DNA of 64,000 nt from a virus, in IMG/VR virus record IMGVR_UViG_3300027759_003961, positions 19,059-83,058 of that record; one strand, 5' to 3'. Of the stretch, positions 43,268 through 60,737 are shown piece by piece. A program made the translations under genes and the position numbers. Each line of letters begins with the position of its first letter. The stretch's first letter is position 1. The notes under the pieces are model-generated. The model saw only the letters and a list, made by a program, of their open reading frames with translations, ran no database searches and was not told where the DNA came from.

Positions 43268-43293
43268 AATCTGTTGTTTTTAGGCAACAGATT
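43268..43293 (-). terminator. Hairpin at the end of the DUF4214 gene
   Basis: A perfect 9-bp stem (AATCTGTTG/CAACAGATT, 8-nt loop) overlaps the stop codon of the large surface-type gene. It lacks a clear T-run, so it may be a weak terminator or an RNA-stabilising hairpin. Confidence 0.45.
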
Positions 43294-45235
43294 ATCCTAT
43301 CCACTCTTGATAAACAATTCCGCCGCCAATTAATCCGATAGTGTTAGCATTATTTTCAAGTGATTCTGAGAATCCTACTAGTACTGCCTCGCGACTGGTA
43401 CCGTTTGACAAGGCTTGGTTCCAAAATTCATATCCAACTGCATCAGGATTACGGTCTAATACATTGTGGTACAATGCCGTGACAAATGTGGCATTAGAAC
43501 CATCGCCATAAAAATTGTTGCGAAATTCTGTGCTGTTTACAAACCCACCGGCAACATCCTGTAAGGATACGCCGCGGTCTAGTGCGTTGATCCAATGACC
43601 CAATCCTTCTGCGTCAGGTACTCGATCCAAGGCTGCTTTATACAAGCGATAGGCCTGACCAGCATTGCCGTTGATGTCAATGGCAATTACACCATCATCA
43701 AATTTGAACCTTTCTACATTGACAAAACTATCTTGGCCATCACGTCCGATCACCTTGTCAGTGGTGGTTATTTGTCCAAGGCTATTGGTTGTAATTTTGT
43801 AGTCGCTAAACTTGCCTGAAAAAATAGCAGTATCCACGCCTGCTCCGCCATCCCAAGTCTTGTCTGCTAACGCAGTAACAAATTTATTATTGTCATTGAT
43901 ATTGAAAGCTGGACTGTCAGATAAAAAAGTTCGTACTTCTTCACCTATTGTACGAGTAGGAGGATTTGGATATACACCTCGTGTAGCTACAACATCAACG
44001 GCTCCATCATTATTGGCATCAAAAAAGAAAGGACTTAGTGTGTACCAGTCTGGAAAAGATTCTTTAGTGTTAAACATAGGCGTTTTAGGATGCGTAAAAT
44101 GCCCAGTTCCGTCATTGATAAAAACATACTGATCAAAATTAGTAGGGCGAGCAAACATACTAGAGATCCAAAAATCTACATAGCCGTCCAAATTGAAATC
44201 TTCAAAAAATAAAGGAGCTCCGGCTGTGTTGTCTCCGTTGTAAAAAGTATTATCTGCAACTAGCTTTCCCGAAGCATCTTGAAAGTACACGGAAAAAACA
44301 CTATTACCTAAATCGCCATATCTAGCTGTTTGTGGGGTACCCGACATATTGGACATGCCATCATCGATTCCACCACTTTGTTCGGTTTCCCAAACTACTA
44401 ATAGATCTTCACGACCATCGCCATTGAGATCCATATTAAACATGTCACTTGCGCCATAATTGCGCTCACGAGCAGATCCTAAGTTTGGTCGCGCTAGGGT
44501 ATAGGACTCTACAAATTGACCGTTTTGTTGGGTTAGGACTGACAATGGGAGCGTTTTCATATCGCCCGGCCATGTCCTATATGCACCAGCCACAATGGCG
44601 TATTGCCCGTTTAGCTCTATAAAAGTAGTACCAGAAACACTGTATTCATAATTATTAAATTTTGCTGGCAACGTATCTTCACGCCAAGTGAATTTAGCTG
44701 AGCCAGAATTTTGATAAATTCTAAAATCAAAAAAACAAGCGACCACAATATCAAGATCACCATCACGATCATAGTCGGCAGCATCAGCAATATGATTAAA
44801 TGTCCTTACACCATTTGTATTGGTGAGCCAGCTGTCTAAATTCTGCCATGTGAGACCATTTTTACCACCCAATAACAATGCAGGATCACCTTTGTTGGGT
44901 GTGGTTCTGTTGTTCAGCTCCCATCCTTGATCAACTTGAAAGTAATCTGTGTAACCGTCATTGTTAAAGTCTCCAGCAACACTGTCACGAAAATACTGAT
45001 ACGGGCTGGTATTTTTTATAACACTCGGATTGGCTGTAAAAACGCCACCTTGGTTAGTCCATGGAACGGGAGCCATGGAAGTGTTCAATACAAAATTAGA
45101 AGGGAATGTGACCAGATCCAAATATCCATTGTGATCAATATCACTAATAATGACTGCATTAGTCTTTCCAAAAGAGTAGGACAATGATGGCTTTGGATCT
45201 AGGTACTGCGCTGAAAGATAGGATGTTTTAAGCAT
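43292..45235 (-). CDS. FG-GAP/VCBS-type propeller protein with DUF4214 tail
   Basis: 647 residues. Residues ~20-430 contain repeated Asp-rich calcium loops (DIDHNGYLDLVTF, DFNNDGYTDYFQV, DYDRDGDLDIVVA, DLNGDGREDLLVV, DFNLDGYVDFWI, DANNDGAVDVVA) as in FG-GAP beta propellers. Residues ~520-640 are DUF4214-type helical repeats (AYRLYKAALDRVPDAEGLGHW, ALYHNVLDRNPDAVGYEFW), usually found in exported bacterial S-layer or adhesin-like proteins. This is an unusual phage gene, probably host-derived, and could be a receptor-binding or surface protein. No signal peptide is seen. Confidence 0.85.
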   Translation of the reverse strand: MLKTSYLSAQYLDPKPSLSYSFGKTNAVIISDIDHNGYLDLVTFPSNFVLNTSMAPVPWTNQGGVFTANPSVIKNTSPYQYFRDSVAGDFNNDGYTDYFQVDQGWELNNRTTPNKGDPALLLGGKNGLTWQNLDSWLTNTNGVRTFNHIADAADYDRDGDLDIVVACFFDFRIYQNSGSAKFTWREDTLPAKFNNYEYSVSGTTFIELNGQYAIVAGAYRTWPGDMKTLPLSVLTQQNGQFVESYTLARPNLGSARERNYGASDMFNMDLNGDGREDLLVVWETEQSGGIDDGMSNMSGTPQTARYGDLGNSVFSVYFQDASGKLVADNTFYNGDNTAGAPLFFEDFNLDGYVDFWISSMFARPTNFDQYVFINDGTGHFTHPKTPMFNTKESFPDWYTLSPFFFDANNDGAVDVVATRGVYPNPPTRTIGEEVRTFLSDSPAFNINDNNKFVTALADKTWDGGAGVDTAIFSGKFSDYKITTNSLGQITTTDKVIGRDGQDSFVNVERFKFDDGVIAIDINGNAGQAYRLYKAALDRVPDAEGLGHWINALDRGVSLQDVAGGFVNSTEFRNNFYGDGSNATFVTALYHNVLDRNPDAVGYEFWNQALSNGTSREAVLVGFSESLENNANTIGLIGGGIVYQEWIG

Positions 45236-46501: not shown

Positions 46502-46525
46502 AAAAAAGCCCGTTTTACCGGGCTA
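46502..46525 (-). terminator. Rho-independent terminator of the PlcP/Agt-like operon
   Basis: Minus strand: AGCCCG, 6-nt loop, CGGGCT, then TTTTTTC. It begins 14 nt after the glycosyltransferase stop (46539), so the lipid-remodelling pair has a defined end. Confidence 0.85.
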
Positions 46526-46538
46526 AAAGGTGTTGTTT

Positions 46539-47549
46539 TTAGACTACAGAACAGTCTATTAAATTTTCTTCAAATATACGCCAACATTCGGCCCAAGTCC
46601 ACTGCAAACTGGCATCTTCTACATCCGCGCGGTCTAGGGTCAAGCATTGTTGCACTGCCAATCGTAAATTGTCGTTAAGGAATCCGGTTAAGCCAGGCTC
46701 AATAATATCCTTGGGGCCAGGTACTGGATATGCCGCCACAGGAGTTCCACAGGCCAGTGCTTCGATGTTGACCACTCCAAAGGTATCGGCACGGCTAGAG
46801 AATACAAACACATCGGCCTGAGCATAGTAACGGGCCAACTCGGTTCCTGTCTTGGCACCCGCAAATTCGATGTCAGGATATCTGCGTTCGAGTTCTCTGC
46901 GATACGGACCATCACCTACTACAATTTTAGTAGCACCCGGCATGTCCAGCTGACAAAAATCATCAAGTCCTTTTTCAACACTGACTCGGCCTACTGAAAG
47001 TAGCACAGGATAGCCTGCTACAGTTTCTACTCGATGACTGCTGTTGAAGATGGTTCGGTCTACACCGCGAGTCCATACACGCAGATTAGCGAACCCACGT
47101 GACACTAAGTCTTGCCTGATACTTTCTGTAGTGACCAACACCCGATGACTGTGCTTATGGAACCAACGCAGATACCACCAGGTCCATGACTCAGGAACGC
47201 CATACATCCGTTTCAAGAACTTGGCAAAATCAGTATGATAGCTAGTATTATAAGGAATATGATTCCGCTCACACCACCACCGGGCAAATAATCCTACTGG
47301 CCCTTCGGTCGCAATGTGAATATACGACGGCTGTATCGCCTTAATCTTTTTACTAATCCCGTGTGGCCAGCAGAGTTTAACTTCAGGATAACCAGGGCAA
47401 GCAAAATGAGGGAACTGCCTGGGATTAATATATACAATATGATGCCCGTTACTACTAGCGTGATCTTCCAGGGCTTTGAAAGTTGTGACCACTCCATTGA
47501 TTTGATCTGGAACATTGTCAGTGACTACTAGGATTATTTTTGTTGACAT
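46539..47549 (-). CDS. GT4 glycosyltransferase, Agt-like (glycolipid synthesis candidate)
   Basis: 336 residues of GT-B fold. The N-terminal domain has QINGVVTTFKALEDH; the C-terminal domain has LLSVGRVSVEKGLDDF, IVVGDGPYRRELERR, FVFSSRADTFGVVNIEALACGTPV (the EX7E-type donor site). This resembles MgtA/Agt enzymes that glycosylate diacylglycerol. It follows a PlcP-like phosphoesterase, the same pairing as the bacterial phosphate-starvation lipid-remodelling genes, where Agt makes glycolipid from the diacylglycerol that PlcP releases. Acceptor specificity is inferred from context. Confidence 0.85.
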   Translation of the reverse strand: MSTKIILVVTDNVPDQINGVVTTFKALEDHASSNGHHIVYINPRQFPHFACPGYPEVKLCWPHGISKKIKAIQPSYIHIATEGPVGLFARWWCERNHIPYNTSYHTDFAKFLKRMYGVPESWTWWYLRWFHKHSHRVLVTTESIRQDLVSRGFANLRVWTRGVDRTIFNSSHRVETVAGYPVLLSVGRVSVEKGLDDFCQLDMPGATKIVVGDGPYRRELERRYPDIEFAGAKTGTELARYYAQADVFVFSSRADTFGVVNIEALACGTPVAAYPVPGPKDIIEPGLTGFLNDNLRLAVQQCLTLDRADVEDASLQWTWAECWRIFEENLIDCSVV

Positions 47550-47680
47550 TGTGCGTGTACCTTAAATCCTTCAAACTTGAGCCAGTATTTAACTGACTCA
47601 CGAGCTGACTCGCATGCTCGTTCCGTAGCAAACTCAAGGCTTACTCTTCCTGGTACGTCGTTTGGATTGTTTATGTTCAC
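47534..47680 (-). CDS. Possible small overlapping gene (48 aa)
   Basis: A GTG at 47680 opens a 48-codon frame (VNINNPNDVPGRVSLEFATE...) ending CQQK. It overlaps the end of the phosphoesterase gene by 47 bp and the glycosyltransferase start by 16 bp, bridging the only gap between them. The make-up looks protein-like, but the start lacks a clear ribosome site. Confidence 0.4.
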   Translation of the reverse strand: MNINNPNDVPGRVSLEFATERACESARESVKYWLKFEGFKVHAQCQQK

Positions 47681-48458
47681 TGCCAACAGTATCAGTATCC
47701 ACATCGTCGTGCTCCTTGGTCCAGGTTATTATTTCCCATGCTCCTGAATGATGTTCGACCAAGGCAGTCATGCTTTCAACCCAGTCACCATCATTCATGT
47801 ACATTATACCATCTATCTCTTTAATTTCTGCATGGTGTATGTGTCCGCATATTACACCATCATAGCCACGCTTGCGGCAATAACGAACAAGATTAAGCTC
47901 AAACTGAAACATAAAATCAGCGGCTTTTTTGACCTTATGCTTGAGATACCTAGACAAACTCCAATAACCAAAGCCCATCCTGTGACGTATCCAATTAAAC
48001 CTGCTGTTAAGGCTGAGAACGAAGTCATACAATTTGTCTCCCAAAAAACTCAGCCAAGGGGCCAAGCGTGTAATGCCATCAAACAGGTCACCATGTGTGA
48101 CCAAGTAATGTTTGCCATCTAGACCAATGTGTTCTGTTTGATTTACTATTTCTACTGCGCCAAATCCCATGCCATAAGGAATAAGTGGGCGCAGGAATTC
48201 ATCATGATTACCTGCCACATAGATTACTCTAGTGCCACGTTTGGCATGCCCCAGTATACGACGCACAACATTGGTATGGCTTTGTTGCCAACGCCATCGG
48301 TTCTGTTGAATTTTCCAGGCATCGATTATGTCGCCTACTAGATATAATGTTTCGCAGGTGTTGTGTTTGAGAAAGTTGTTGAGTGCTTCGGCCTTGCAGT
48401 CGCGAGTGCCTAAGTGAACATCCGAGATAAAGATTGAACGGTAGGTTTTCTCTGGCAT
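47634..48458 (-). CDS. PlcP-like metallophosphoesterase (LpxH-related)
   Basis: 274 residues, the length of PlcP. Calcineurin-type motifs are complete: SDVHLG (D13, H15), VGDIIDAW (D43), GNHDE (84-87), THGDLFD (H122) and CGHIHH (206/208 His). The NVVRRIL, DGKHYLVTHGDLFD and MNDGDWVES segments fit the family annotated as UDP-2,3-diacylglucosamine pyrophosphatase, which includes PlcP, a phospholipase C that splits phosphatidylcholine/ethanolamine to diacylglycerol during phosphate starvation. The adjacent Agt-like transferase supports this over lipid A synthesis. The C-terminal ~25 residues are basic. Confidence 0.85.
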   Translation of the reverse strand: MPEKTYRSIFISDVHLGTRDCKAEALNNFLKHNTCETLYLVGDIIDAWKIQQNRWRWQQSHTNVVRRILGHAKRGTRVIYVAGNHDEFLRPLIPYGMGFGAVEIVNQTEHIGLDGKHYLVTHGDLFDGITRLAPWLSFLGDKLYDFVLSLNSRFNWIRHRMGFGYWSLSRYLKHKVKKAADFMFQFELNLVRYCRKRGYDGVICGHIHHAEIKEIDGIMYMNDGDWVESMTALVEHHSGAWEIITWTKEHDDVDTDTVGSEHKQSKRRTRKSKP

Positions 48459-48503
48459 ACGCTTATTTACTGCAATGCCAGAGAAAAAGATATTACACTT
48501 GTG

Positions 48504-48662
48504 TTACACCCTTACAAGTGTCCATTTACCATCAAATGATTTGCCTGCGGCCTTGTGCTTAACGATCTTGGCGAATTCCTTCTTGCGAAGTTCCTGCTGT
48601 TTCTCAGCGTCATGGTTGATGCAGGCCTGATACACTTTACGAATCAATTTATTCTGTTTCAT
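48504..48662 (-). CDS. Small basic protein (52 aa)
   Basis: ATG 48662 with GGAGG nearby starts MKQNKLIRKVYQACINHDAE; the product is Lys-rich and helical and may bind nucleic acid. It lies between a terminator and the PlcP-like gene under its own weak promoter. An 8-bp inverted repeat (ACACTTGT/ACAAGTGT) spans its stop codon. Confidence 0.6.
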   Translation of the reverse strand: MKQNKLIRKVYQACINHDAEKQQELRKKEFAKIVKHKAAGKSFDGKWTLVRV

Positions 48663-48687
48663 TGCCCTATCCTCCTTTTGTAATAAA

Positions 48688-48717
48688 ACTGTAACACAAG
48701 TATATATCAAAAGTCAA
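48688..48717 (-). promoter_or_regulatory. Weak sigma70-like promoter
   Basis: TTGACT, 18-nt spacer, TACAGT, 26 nt before ATG 48662. It would drive the small basic gene and perhaps the PlcP/Agt-like pair. Confidence 0.5.
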
Positions 48718-48737: not shown

Positions 48738-48759
48738 AAAAAGGACCGAAGTCCTTTTT
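48738..48759 (-). terminator. Rho-independent terminator after ahpD-like gene
   Basis: A 9-bp stem AAAAAGGAC/GTCCTTTTT with a TTCG tetraloop on the minus strand, followed by TTTC. Marks the end of the ahpC-ahpD transcript. Confidence 0.85.
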
Positions 48760-48837
48760 GATTCTGGTTACGAGCTCCAGAGACACTCTATCTTTGTGTC
48801 CGGTTGAGTTATTTACTTTTTGAATGTTACGGTTGTA

Positions 48838-49350
48838 TTACGAATTCAACACCTTTGCTACGCTGTTGATCACTGCAGCAATACGTCCAATGTCACGAAG
48901 TTGTTCTACTGAATAGCCCATCTTCTTTAATCCATCGTAGTGTGCTCGAACACAAAAGTGACACTTGCCCACAATACTTGCGGCCAAACTATAAGACTCA
49001 AAGCGTTCTTTAGTTGTGCCACCGTGTGACGCAATAGCATTCATACGCAACTGAGCAGGCAAGCCACTTAGGGCATCATCACCGGCCATTTCAACATATG
49101 GGTACCATACATTGTTTTGAGCCATGATTGCCGAAGCTGTCATTGCGGCGTCACGTTCAGTGGCATCTTCCATGCTTGACTGTATAAATGTAACGAGTTT
49201 GCCATTACCTGTTGCCATTGCGGCTGCAAGAGCACATCCGTTAGCTTCAACAACATCAAGGGTGCTACGATTAATAACACCATCAAGATTAAGTCGTGTG
49301 TCTTTGGCATAATCAGGCAAGGCCTCTTTGATCGTATCTACCCATGACAT
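48838..49350 (-). CDS. ahpD-like: AhpD-like alkylhydroperoxidase
   Basis: 170 residues, usual AhpD length. The catalytic element is KCHFCVRAH (C130, C133, H137) with ERFESYSLAASIV just before it. AhpD recycles oxidised AhpC in actinobacteria and some proteobacteria. The stop/start junction with ahpC is only one base, so the two are co-translated. Together they remove peroxides, possibly those made by the phage SOD. Confidence 0.92.
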   Translation of the reverse strand: MSWVDTIKEALPDYAKDTRLNLDGVINRSTLDVVEANGCALAAAMATGNGKLVTFIQSSMEDATERDAAMTASAIMAQNNVWYPYVEMAGDDALSGLPAQLRMNAIASHGGTTKERFESYSLAASIVGKCHFCVRAHYDGLKKMGYSVEQLRDIGRIAAVINSVAKVLNS

Positions 49351-49889
49351 TACAGTGTCTCCCCACCTACTGTGCGGTTACATGCACAGAGCTCACCTGT
49401 TTGAAGTGCGTCCAATACACGCAATGTTTCTTCTGGGCTACGACCAACATTCAAGTTGTTGACAGTAACATGCTGAATAACATTGTCTGGGTCAACAATG
49501 AATGTGGCACGAAGTGCGGCACCAGCTGGTGCATAGAATACACCAAGTTGTTCAATCAAGCTCAACTCACCACGCTGTGTGTCAGCGAATTGGTTGTGTG
49601 TGATCTTCTTTAAATCACTGTGGGCTGTTTGCCAGCTAACTTTACAGAACTCATTGTCTGTGCTACCTGTGAGCAGGACTGCGTCACGGTCAGCAAAGTC
49701 ACGTGTCAATTTGTCATAGGCTACAATTTCTGTTGGGCATACAAATGTAAAATCTTTTGGATAGTAAACAATTACTTTCCACTTGCCAGCAAATGATTCT
49801 TCTGTGATATCAAAGAACGCATCTTCTGGTTGCCCTGGCTTGACGCCGGTTACTACAAACTTCTCTAATTTATGTCCTACTGTTTTCAT
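49350..49889 (-). CDS. ahpC-like: AhpC-type peroxiredoxin
   Basis: 179 residues from ATG 49889, chosen because AAGGAG sits six bases upstream (the ATG at 49895 would touch it). Peroxidatic Cys51 is in DFTFVCPTE, and C168/C170 in TGELCACN, the two-Cys C-terminus typical of AhpC types that work with AhpD rather than AhpF. RATFIVDPDNVIQ and RSPEETLRVLDALQ also match. Forms an operon with the ahpD-like gene. Confidence 0.93.
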   Translation of the reverse strand: MKTVGHKLEKFVVTGVKPGQPEDAFFDITEESFAGKWKVIVYYPKDFTFVCPTEIVAYDKLTRDFADRDAVLLTGSTDNEFCKVSWQTAHSDLKKITHNQFADTQRGELSLIEQLGVFYAPAGAALRATFIVDPDNVIQHVTVNNLNVGRSPEETLRVLDALQTGELCACNRTVGGETL

Positions 49890-50051
49890 GCACATCTCCT
49901 TAAGTTAAAATTGGTGACTCAGTGTTAATACTGATATATTGATTGTACATTAATTTATCCTATTAATCTACGATTTTAATAGATTTTTTCAGAATATTTT
50001 TTAATAATGCTTATAGATTTTTTTAATAACGTAACCAAAGAAAAAGGGCTG

Positions 50052-59483: not shown

Positions 59484-59817
59484 GTCTCCTTGCTGATTGT
59501 AAACGCATCTTCATTGCGGCTCCCGACAGAAACTGATCATCCGGATCAAAGCTGACACTATTCAAATAGAATTTTTTCAACACACGATCGCCATTCCACC
59601 AACTACGTTGACACTGAATATACCCTTCATCTTCCAACTGATTGCGTAAGGCTTTGAACTCCTCACTGTCGTCTGTGCCCATGACACTACGATTGCCCTT
59701 GCCCTGTAACACTTTAACTAAATCGTCATTGGTTATTGTATCTTTGTCGGCGTAGTCATTCCACTGACGATGATAGTGTGGATGCCAATCTAGGGATTCA
59801 TCTAGCTCAAAAACCAT
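59470..59817 (-). CDS. Hypothetical protein
   Basis: 115 residues. DDSEEFKALRNQLEDEGYIQCQR resembles a winged-helix recognition region, but evidence is thin. Its start overlaps the metallophosphoesterase stop. Confidence 0.65.
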   Translation of the reverse strand: MVFELDESLDWHPHYHRQWNDYADKDTITNDDLVKVLQGKGNRSVMGTDDSEEFKALRNQLEDEGYIQCQRSWWNGDRVLKKFYLNSVSFDPDDQFLSGAAMKMRLQSARRRENV

Positions 59818-60737
59818 TAGACCTCCAAGTATTGTAGTTTAAAAAAGTCTGCAATAGACTCGTAGCCAACATAGCCTCTAGGGTTACATACCACACGGGT
59901 TTCGCCAATCCAGTAGTTGAAGTTATGATGCGTGTGTCCGTGCAACCATAATTTAATCTGTGGGCGGGCCTCAATAAAATCATCTAAACTGCTGCGGAAT
60001 GCACCATTTAGCAAGTTACCTTTGTACATGTCAGCTACACTCAGTTCGCTAGGGCAATGATGCCCGACCACAATGTAACTGCCAGGATCGCGGGTTGCAT
60101 GATTAATATAGGCCATCATTTTCTCATGATCCTCTACGCTATCTTCTGGACTCCAACGAGCCGGCTCTTCTTTGAATTTAACGCCATTAGGAACCAGGTT
60201 GCCTTTTTCATCCTTGATATATTTTCCGCCGTTTTTACCATCTTCAGTATAGAGCAAATTTTCCATATACACCGGCACCTGGCGAACAACCATACGATTA
60301 CTATTTTTAACTTCGCGGAAGTCATTCATGGCATCTTTACAGTAGCTCAATGTTAAGCTATTACTGTCATCCATATTGGTCCACAAGGTACCACACACAA
60401 AGGTATGACCTTGATGTTGCCATGTTTCTTTTTCAAGAATATGTAAGTTGCTGTAATCCAAGTGTTCTCTAAGAATGTTGTAAGTATGAGCCGCATCTCC
60501 TGAGTAGTGTTCATGATTGCCCATGATATACACCACTTGAGGAAATTCTTGGCACACATGATCAAAGAACTGTCTATACTCTTTTGCTAAGTGTTGCATA
60601 TATGTAGGGCGACCATCCACAAAATGTTTGGCCACACAGATGTCGCCGGCAAGAACCAAGACATCAGCACCCTCGGTATTATCAAGGGTGATGGGTCCGA
60701 ATTCTAAATGTATATCACTGGCTAGAGCTATTTTCAT
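59817..60737 (-). CDS. Calcineurin-like metallophosphoesterase
   Basis: 306 residues with all family motifs: ASDIHLEFG (D8, H10), VLAGDICV, YIMGNHEHYSG, VGHHCPSELS and LHGHTHHNF. Hydrolyses phosphomonoesters or diesters; related phage proteins are seen as nucleotide or 3',5'-cyclic phosphodiesterases. Separate from the PlcP-like gene, which has a different sequence type. Overlaps the membrane-protein gene by 23 bp. Confidence 0.9.
   Translation of the reverse strand: MKIALASDIHLEFGPITLDNTEGADVLVLAGDICVAKHFVDGRPTYMQHLAKEYRQFFDHVCQEFPQVVYIMGNHEHYSGDAAHTYNILREHLDYSNLHILEKETWQHQGHTFVCGTLWTNMDDSNSLTLSYCKDAMNDFREVKNSNRMVVRQVPVYMENLLYTEDGKNGGKYIKDEKGNLVPNGVKFKEEPARWSPEDSVEDHEKMMAYINHATRDPGSYIVVGHHCPSELSVADMYKGNLLNGAFRSSLDDFIEARPQIKLWLHGHTHHNFNYWIGETRVVCNPRGYVGYESIADFFKLQYLEV

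Follow-up and report, generated by a model that had tools for sequence, protein, structure and literature searches.

The stretch of viral DNA described here very probably carries a phage version of the PlcP-Agt operon for lipid renovation. This stretch, which we refer to as the window, spans 64,000 nucleotides (positions 19,059-83,058 of the 83,058-bp record IMGVR_UViG_3300027759_003961). What we observe directly are the genes, their placement in protein families, their conserved adjacency, purifying selection, the architecture of the promoter and a linkage to pstS. On balance we also favour a wider reading, held less firmly, in which large T4-like phages have a phosphate-starvation regulon of their own and would use it to strip phosphate from the host membrane for DNA. 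In this regulon, plcP and a small overlapping gene would be joined by a lipid glycosyltransferase of either of two unrelated types, and frequently by pstS and a desaturase; host PhoB would read the promoters, and a structured RNA element would lie where the units end. The features of the locus are as follows:

46507..46524, minus strand: terminator-like hairpin with a T-run, just 3' of the glycosyltransferase gene
46539..47549, minus strand: Agt-like GT4 glycosyltransferase, predicted from Pfam, identity and tree; 336 aa, ATG start
47534..47704, minus strand: overlapping ORF of 56 aa, conserved at viral plcP-glycosyltransferase junctions
47634..48458, minus strand: plcP-like metallophosphoesterase, predicted from Pfam, identity and tree; 274 aa, ATG start
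48464..48508, minus strand: Pho-box-like plcP promoter, TGTAAC-N5-TGTAAT-N22-TAAATA
48504..48662, minus strand: conserved ORF of 52 aa directly upstream of plcP (cluster 4, 18/80 loci)
48678..48695, plus strand: second Pho-box-like repeat, TTGTAATAAAACTGTAAC, upstream of the 52-aa ORF
48763..48805, minus strand: two-stem RNA-like element, followed by a hairpin/T-run terminator at 48759..48738

Reading along the minus strand, the phosphoesterase gene is followed after 84 bp by the transferase gene and then by a G+C-rich hairpin with a T-run. Both proteins score above the Pfam cut-offs, the phosphoesterase for Metallophos (44.5 bits) and the transferase for Glyco_trans_1_4 (75 bits). Compared with close viral relatives both genes have dN/dS values of 0.04-0.12, indicating purifying selection, and so are not chance ORFs. 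The original prediction had described a metallophosphoesterase of 274 residues with all the calcineurin motifs, followed by a GT4 enzyme and a terminator, and this arrangement was borne out, with both ORFs in place, every metal ligand present and the hairpin and T-run at 46524..46507. The two-gene layout was incomplete, as a third ORF (47534..47704) that overlaps both genes had been missed. The 52-aa ORF upstream of plcP has no Pfam match above cut-off. Directly upstream are AhpD-like and AhpC-like peroxide-reduction genes (48838..49895, minus strand), and genes related to these lie close to plcP at 17-18 of 80 viral loci. The same phage has a second metallophosphoesterase gene (59817..60737, minus strand), and a 647-aa protein with FG-GAP repeats and DUF4214 is encoded at 43292..45235 (minus strand).

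The phosphoesterase is 54.7% identical over 243 aa to the Pseudomonas aeruginosa PA3219 copy and 47.0% identical to the Sinorhizobium meliloti PlcP copy. Our P. aeruginosa reference is a plasmid copy with a neighbourhood matching PA3223-PA3217; we take its synteny with this region of PAO1, on which the identification of PA3219 and PA3218 depends, as given. The S. meliloti reference lies beside an AHL synthase and a LuxR gene and is presumably SMc00171. Equating these copies with the characterised genes rests partly on assumed synteny. The two copies share 47% identity with each other, in agreement with the 46% reported for PA3219 and S. meliloti PlcP (PMC8528852). The record CP090106.1, titled S. 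meliloti pSymB and 3.7 Mb in length, has the AHL synthase and LuxR genes beside plcP and looks like a mislabelled chromosome.

All seven calcineurin metal ligands (D13, H15, D43, N84, H122, H206 and H208) are present in the window phosphoesterase, and they are invariant across 123 viral and 80 bacterial relatives. The same family is often annotated as UDP-2,3-diacylglucosamine diphosphatase, as had been pointed out beforehand and as database names confirm. This raises the possibility that the enzyme is of the LpxH type and that the pair acts on lipid A or LPS. The closest solved folds are also those of LpxH, and there is a weak match to an NCBIfam LpxH model. However, the window protein scores only 48.2 and 39 bits on the two NCBIfam LpxH models, far below their cut-offs of 134 and 190. 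Against the cut-off of 134, bacterial PlcP-like proteins score 39-57 bits and true LpxH 248-322 bits, and an LpxH search found a separate protein in the latter range in seven of eight bacterial genomes with a PlcP-like gene. All 123 viral phosphoesterases carry GNHDE where LpxH has GNRD. In a maximum-likelihood tree, a branch with support of 100/100 separates eight LpxH sequences (that of E. coli and seven from genomes that also carry a PlcP-like gene) from the window protein and the PA3219 and S. meliloti copies, and a clade supported at 100/99 holds 21 of the 22 viral phosphoesterases. A grouping with LpxH, which would have overturned the PlcP call, did not occur. On the score below cut-off, the separate true LpxH and the tree split we reject an LpxH identity, and we regard action of the pair on lipid A or LPS as highly improbable. 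Sequence comparison therefore supports identification of the phosphoesterase as PlcP rather than LpxH.

The transferase and the PA3218 (Agt1) copy share 39.9% identity over 328 aa. In the GT4 tree, a clade with support of 99 contains the viral proteins (themselves supported at 100), the bacterial Agt proteins linked to plcP and the PA3218 copy. Outside it fall Acinetobacter MgtA and E. coli WaaB, WaaG, WcaC, WcaI and WcaL. This tree was built by a quick method and flagged for long outgroup branches. The predicted Agt resemblance would have failed had the protein grouped with LPS or capsule GT4 enzymes; no such grouping was seen, and on its placement we reject that identity. In mutation tests on GTcp, changes at His104, Arg163, Trp320 and donor-site residues led to loss of activity (PMC8231724). 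We mapped the catalytic (H104/D256), donor and diacylglycerol (R163, W320) residues by motif and alignment, and not on GTcp itself. The positions of His104, Arg163 and Trp320 and those of the donor site are kept in the window protein, where Trp320 corresponds to Trp319, and in 85/85 viral GT4s. At the Asp256 position the window protein has Asp, as do 57 of the viral GT4s, and the other 28 have Glu. The Gly16 position, a Gly right after Asn18, is invariant in the alignment, and the PA3218 copy has Lys in place of Arg163. Taken together, the alignments support an Agt-like GT4 with its predicted catalytic and diacylglycerol-binding residues kept.

Predicted models of the phosphoesterase and transferase (mean pLDDT 77 and 87) were searched with Foldseek and matched LpxH folds and general GT4 folds, respectively. 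These predicted folds do not decide the substrate of either enzyme.

The pair is not an oddity of one contig. Searches of viral contigs returned at least 597 relatives of the phosphoesterase and 49 of the transferase. At the 76 viral plcP loci with 1.2 kb of downstream sequence, the next gene is a GT4 in 37 and an unrelated GT2 in 36, together 73/76. Conversely, plcP lies upstream in 41/41 viral GT4 loci with enough upstream sequence. The viral loci are related to each other, and these counts are not independent events. Among the nearest bacterial plcP-like loci, Agt adjoins plcP in 49 of 80. An example of the GT2 replacing the GT4 after plcP is found at L073:6901-7620; in phage and plasmid collections, relatives of the GT2 gave weak matches alone. 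It is conceivable that the GT4, or the GT2 that replaces it, glycosylates another acceptor, for example polyprenyl phosphate or a surface glycan, and that its position after plcP is incidental. The GT2 variant shows a weak resemblance to GtrB-like enzymes of O-antigen conversion, and GT4 folds are broadly similar. Placement of the GT4 in the Agt clade, retention of the diacylglycerol-binding residues and the presence of plcP immediately upstream at every testable viral GT4 locus argue against another acceptor, and we consider it improbable.

The junction between the two genes contains the 56-aa ORF (MWILILLAVNINNP...), which shares approximately 71 bp with the 3' end of plcP and 16 bp with the start of the glycosyltransferase gene. 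It is present in 93 of 107 viral plcP-glycosyltransferase adjacencies, of both GT4 and GT2 types, and in 0/48 bacterial pairs. Its N-terminus is a hydrophobic stretch; we found no Pfam match and only a weak match to PHROG 3766. Among the other neighbours of viral plcP are PstS (421.8 bits against a cut-off of 339) and a DesA-family fatty-acid desaturase (396 bits, just below the cut-off of 400), the latter near 20/80 viral plcP loci. Only five phage records hold a PlcP-like gene. Among them Mosig and S-SRM01, a Pelagibacter phage and a cyanophage, have no transferase beside it, and in Mosig the gene adjoins a phosphate-transporter gene.

The record itself encodes a T4-type DNA polymerase B, a sliding clamp and a clamp loader. 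We identified the polymerase and clamp by eye from the listed ORFs; the loader was assigned by PHROG 168 and has 51% identity to its counterparts in PA5oct-like jumbo phages. We looked for phage hallmarks, and on the record itself these three genes supply them; the 83-kb fragment gave no capsid or terminase match. We also searched 14 records, this one included, that were picked for containing the cassette or a viral plcP, with contigs reaching 525 kb. A T4-like Gp23 capsid was found in 10/14 (E 1e-78 to 1e-143) and a terminase in 9/14. We reject host contamination on the basis of the phage replication genes and the related capsid-bearing records. Upstream of plcP on a 207-kb phage contig lies a Polynucleobacter-1 RNA (L028:5450-5595; RF01718, 102.5 bits), a possible hint of the host, and another viral contig has a permuted tmRNA beside pstS/plcP (L065:4428-4780).

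The DNA upstream of the viral plcP genes has a pair of TGTMAY repeats at a distance of 11 bp, with a TAAATA hexamer close to the start codon. The upstream regions were made non-redundant at 75% identity (n=59 loci) and up to two mismatches were allowed. The spacing x in TGTMAY-N5-TGTMAY-Nx-TAAATA peaks at 11 (23/59) and at 21-22 (13 and 16 loci), with all other spacings in the range 6-27 found in 0-4 loci each. Elsewhere, 1.17 million strand-bp contained 17 sites with x=11, many of them preceding pstS. In PhoB-activated promoters the Pho box replaces the -35 element, and the predicted spacing layout of the viral plcP promoters equals that of such promoters, though we have no PhoB-binding data. 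The promoter in the window has no mismatches and ends 5 nt before the ATG, with the caveat that it belongs to the 22-bp class and not the canonical 11. The second Pho-box-like repeat (48678..48695) is the sole match in 64 kb, where 0.19 would be expected. A T4 late promoter, TATAAATA, was rejected as the source of the conserved TAAATA, as the full motif occurs in only 2/122 upstream regions.

A scan of IMG/VR contigs with the DNA pattern, blind to protein content, gave plcP as the next gene at least 35 times and PstS at least 26 times among the matches listed. Also among the matches listed were an unidentified family (at least 7), another (at least 3) and pairs or singles, with a Na/Pi cotransporter (PF02690) as one of these. 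In L257 and L278, Pho boxes precede phage genes that encode such a cotransporter and an unidentified membrane protein in which the motif NDSVQTLGT occurs. The Pho-box promoter and the co-occurrence with pstS tie the operon to phosphate starvation, and from its sequence it looks like one switched on by the phosphate-starvation signal of the host. PhoB does bind cyanophage promoters, yet Pho-box prediction in a cyanophage was found unreliable without binding tests (PMC10976474). The consensus used here is stricter than the one in that study, again in the absence of binding data; a Pho-box promoter, as a further criterion for PlcP, is supported by sequence alone.

The two-stem element of approximately 43 nt is found in the window, in L374, L384 and L391 and in others. 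Its first stem is variable, with 21 different stems, and pairs in 56/59 copies compared with 6/59 when shuffled, while the second is fixed (CTGG..CCAG). A hairpin and T-run often lie 3' of it. In an independent pattern scan, 35 of 37 copies lay within 2.5 kb of a viral plcP or pstS, and the usual position was just after pstS. Rfam gave no match at the gathering threshold and only chance-level hits (E 1-2), and on this result we reject a known RNA family.

We propose the following mechanism, in which catalysis, PhoB binding, phosphate release to the phage and any advantage that it gains are all inferred, with no activity, lipid or expression data. In a phosphate-starved, infected host, phosphorylated PhoB would bind the Pho boxes before plcP and recruit RNA polymerase, as the promoter architecture implies. 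PlcP, judging by its 55% and 47% identity to proven PlcP enzymes, would cleave the phosphorylated head group off phospholipids, for example phosphatidylglycerol and phosphatidylethanolamine, leaving diacylglycerol. Homology to Agt and conservation of the mutation-tested residues suggest that the transferase would then add a sugar to the diacylglycerol from UDP-glucose, UDP-galactose or UDP-glucuronate. Membrane area would be kept by the phosphate-free glycolipid, and the freed phosphate, together with PstS uptake in related phages, may feed nucleotide and genome synthesis. It is also possible that the enzymes are indeed PlcP and a lipid glycosyltransferase and that the benefit lies in an altered envelope, through a block to superinfection or easier assembly or lysis, and not in phosphate supply. 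The desaturase near a quarter of the viral plcP loci and a slot that takes two unrelated transferases would fit such a role, and lipid renovation in P. aeruginosa has been discussed as altering phage interaction (PMC9804370). However, the Pho-box promoter, with pstS and the Na/Pi cotransporter under the same promoter type, points to a phosphate cue, and we think an envelope role alone unlikely. We therefore retain phosphate supply as the preferred reading.

If this is true, infection would alter both the lipids of the cell and its phosphorus content. The phage pstS genes and PhoB control known so far serve the uptake of external phosphate, but the source tapped by this cassette would be the membrane of the host itself. 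The probable stripping of membrane phosphate with replacement by sugar, in large lake and ocean phages, would be a new route to feed DNA synthesis under scarcity. Since at least 597 viral contigs have a relative of the phosphoesterase, this could be a common process where waters are poor in phosphate, and the cassette may bear on the amount of phosphorus returned by lysis. In virome surveys such as PMC9611531, genes called 'lpxH' may also be plcP placed in the wrong pathway.

Bacterial PlcP-Agt renovation and PhoB-controlled phage pstS are already known. What is new, as far as our literature search reaches, is the extension of phage phosphate-starvation genes to membrane lipids. With incomplete coverage, we found no description of phage PlcP, phage PlcP-Agt or phage lipid renovation, and the original prediction that no phage had been described with the pair stands only within that limit. 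LpxH shares with the phage phosphoesterase its nearest solved fold and metal-site layout, and differs in its clade and in the GN(R/H)D motif, with the phage protein scoring under the LpxH family cut-off. The PhoB-controlled genes of cyanophages (pstS of P-SSM2 and the S-PM2d set, PMC10976474) are likewise phage genes under the host phosphate two-component system; no lipid-renovation genes are reported in that set, and the repeats in the present loci depart from the cyanobacterial Pho-box consensus. In Pelagibacter HTCC7211 and marine heterotrophs (PMC4796936, PMC8231724), plcP is followed by a GT4, GTcp or Agt, that makes MGDG or GADG and has the key residues in common with the phage enzyme; unlike the phage pair, these genes are cellular. 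The closest parallel is the P. aeruginosa PlcP-Agt1 pair (PA3219-PA3218; PMC8528852), which has the same families, order, adjacency on one strand and upstream Pho box, with 55% and 40% identity. In contrast, the phage version occurs in large T4-like phages, includes the extra overlapping small ORF and may hold a GT2 in the transferase slot, and in related phages pstS or a desaturase is often adjacent.
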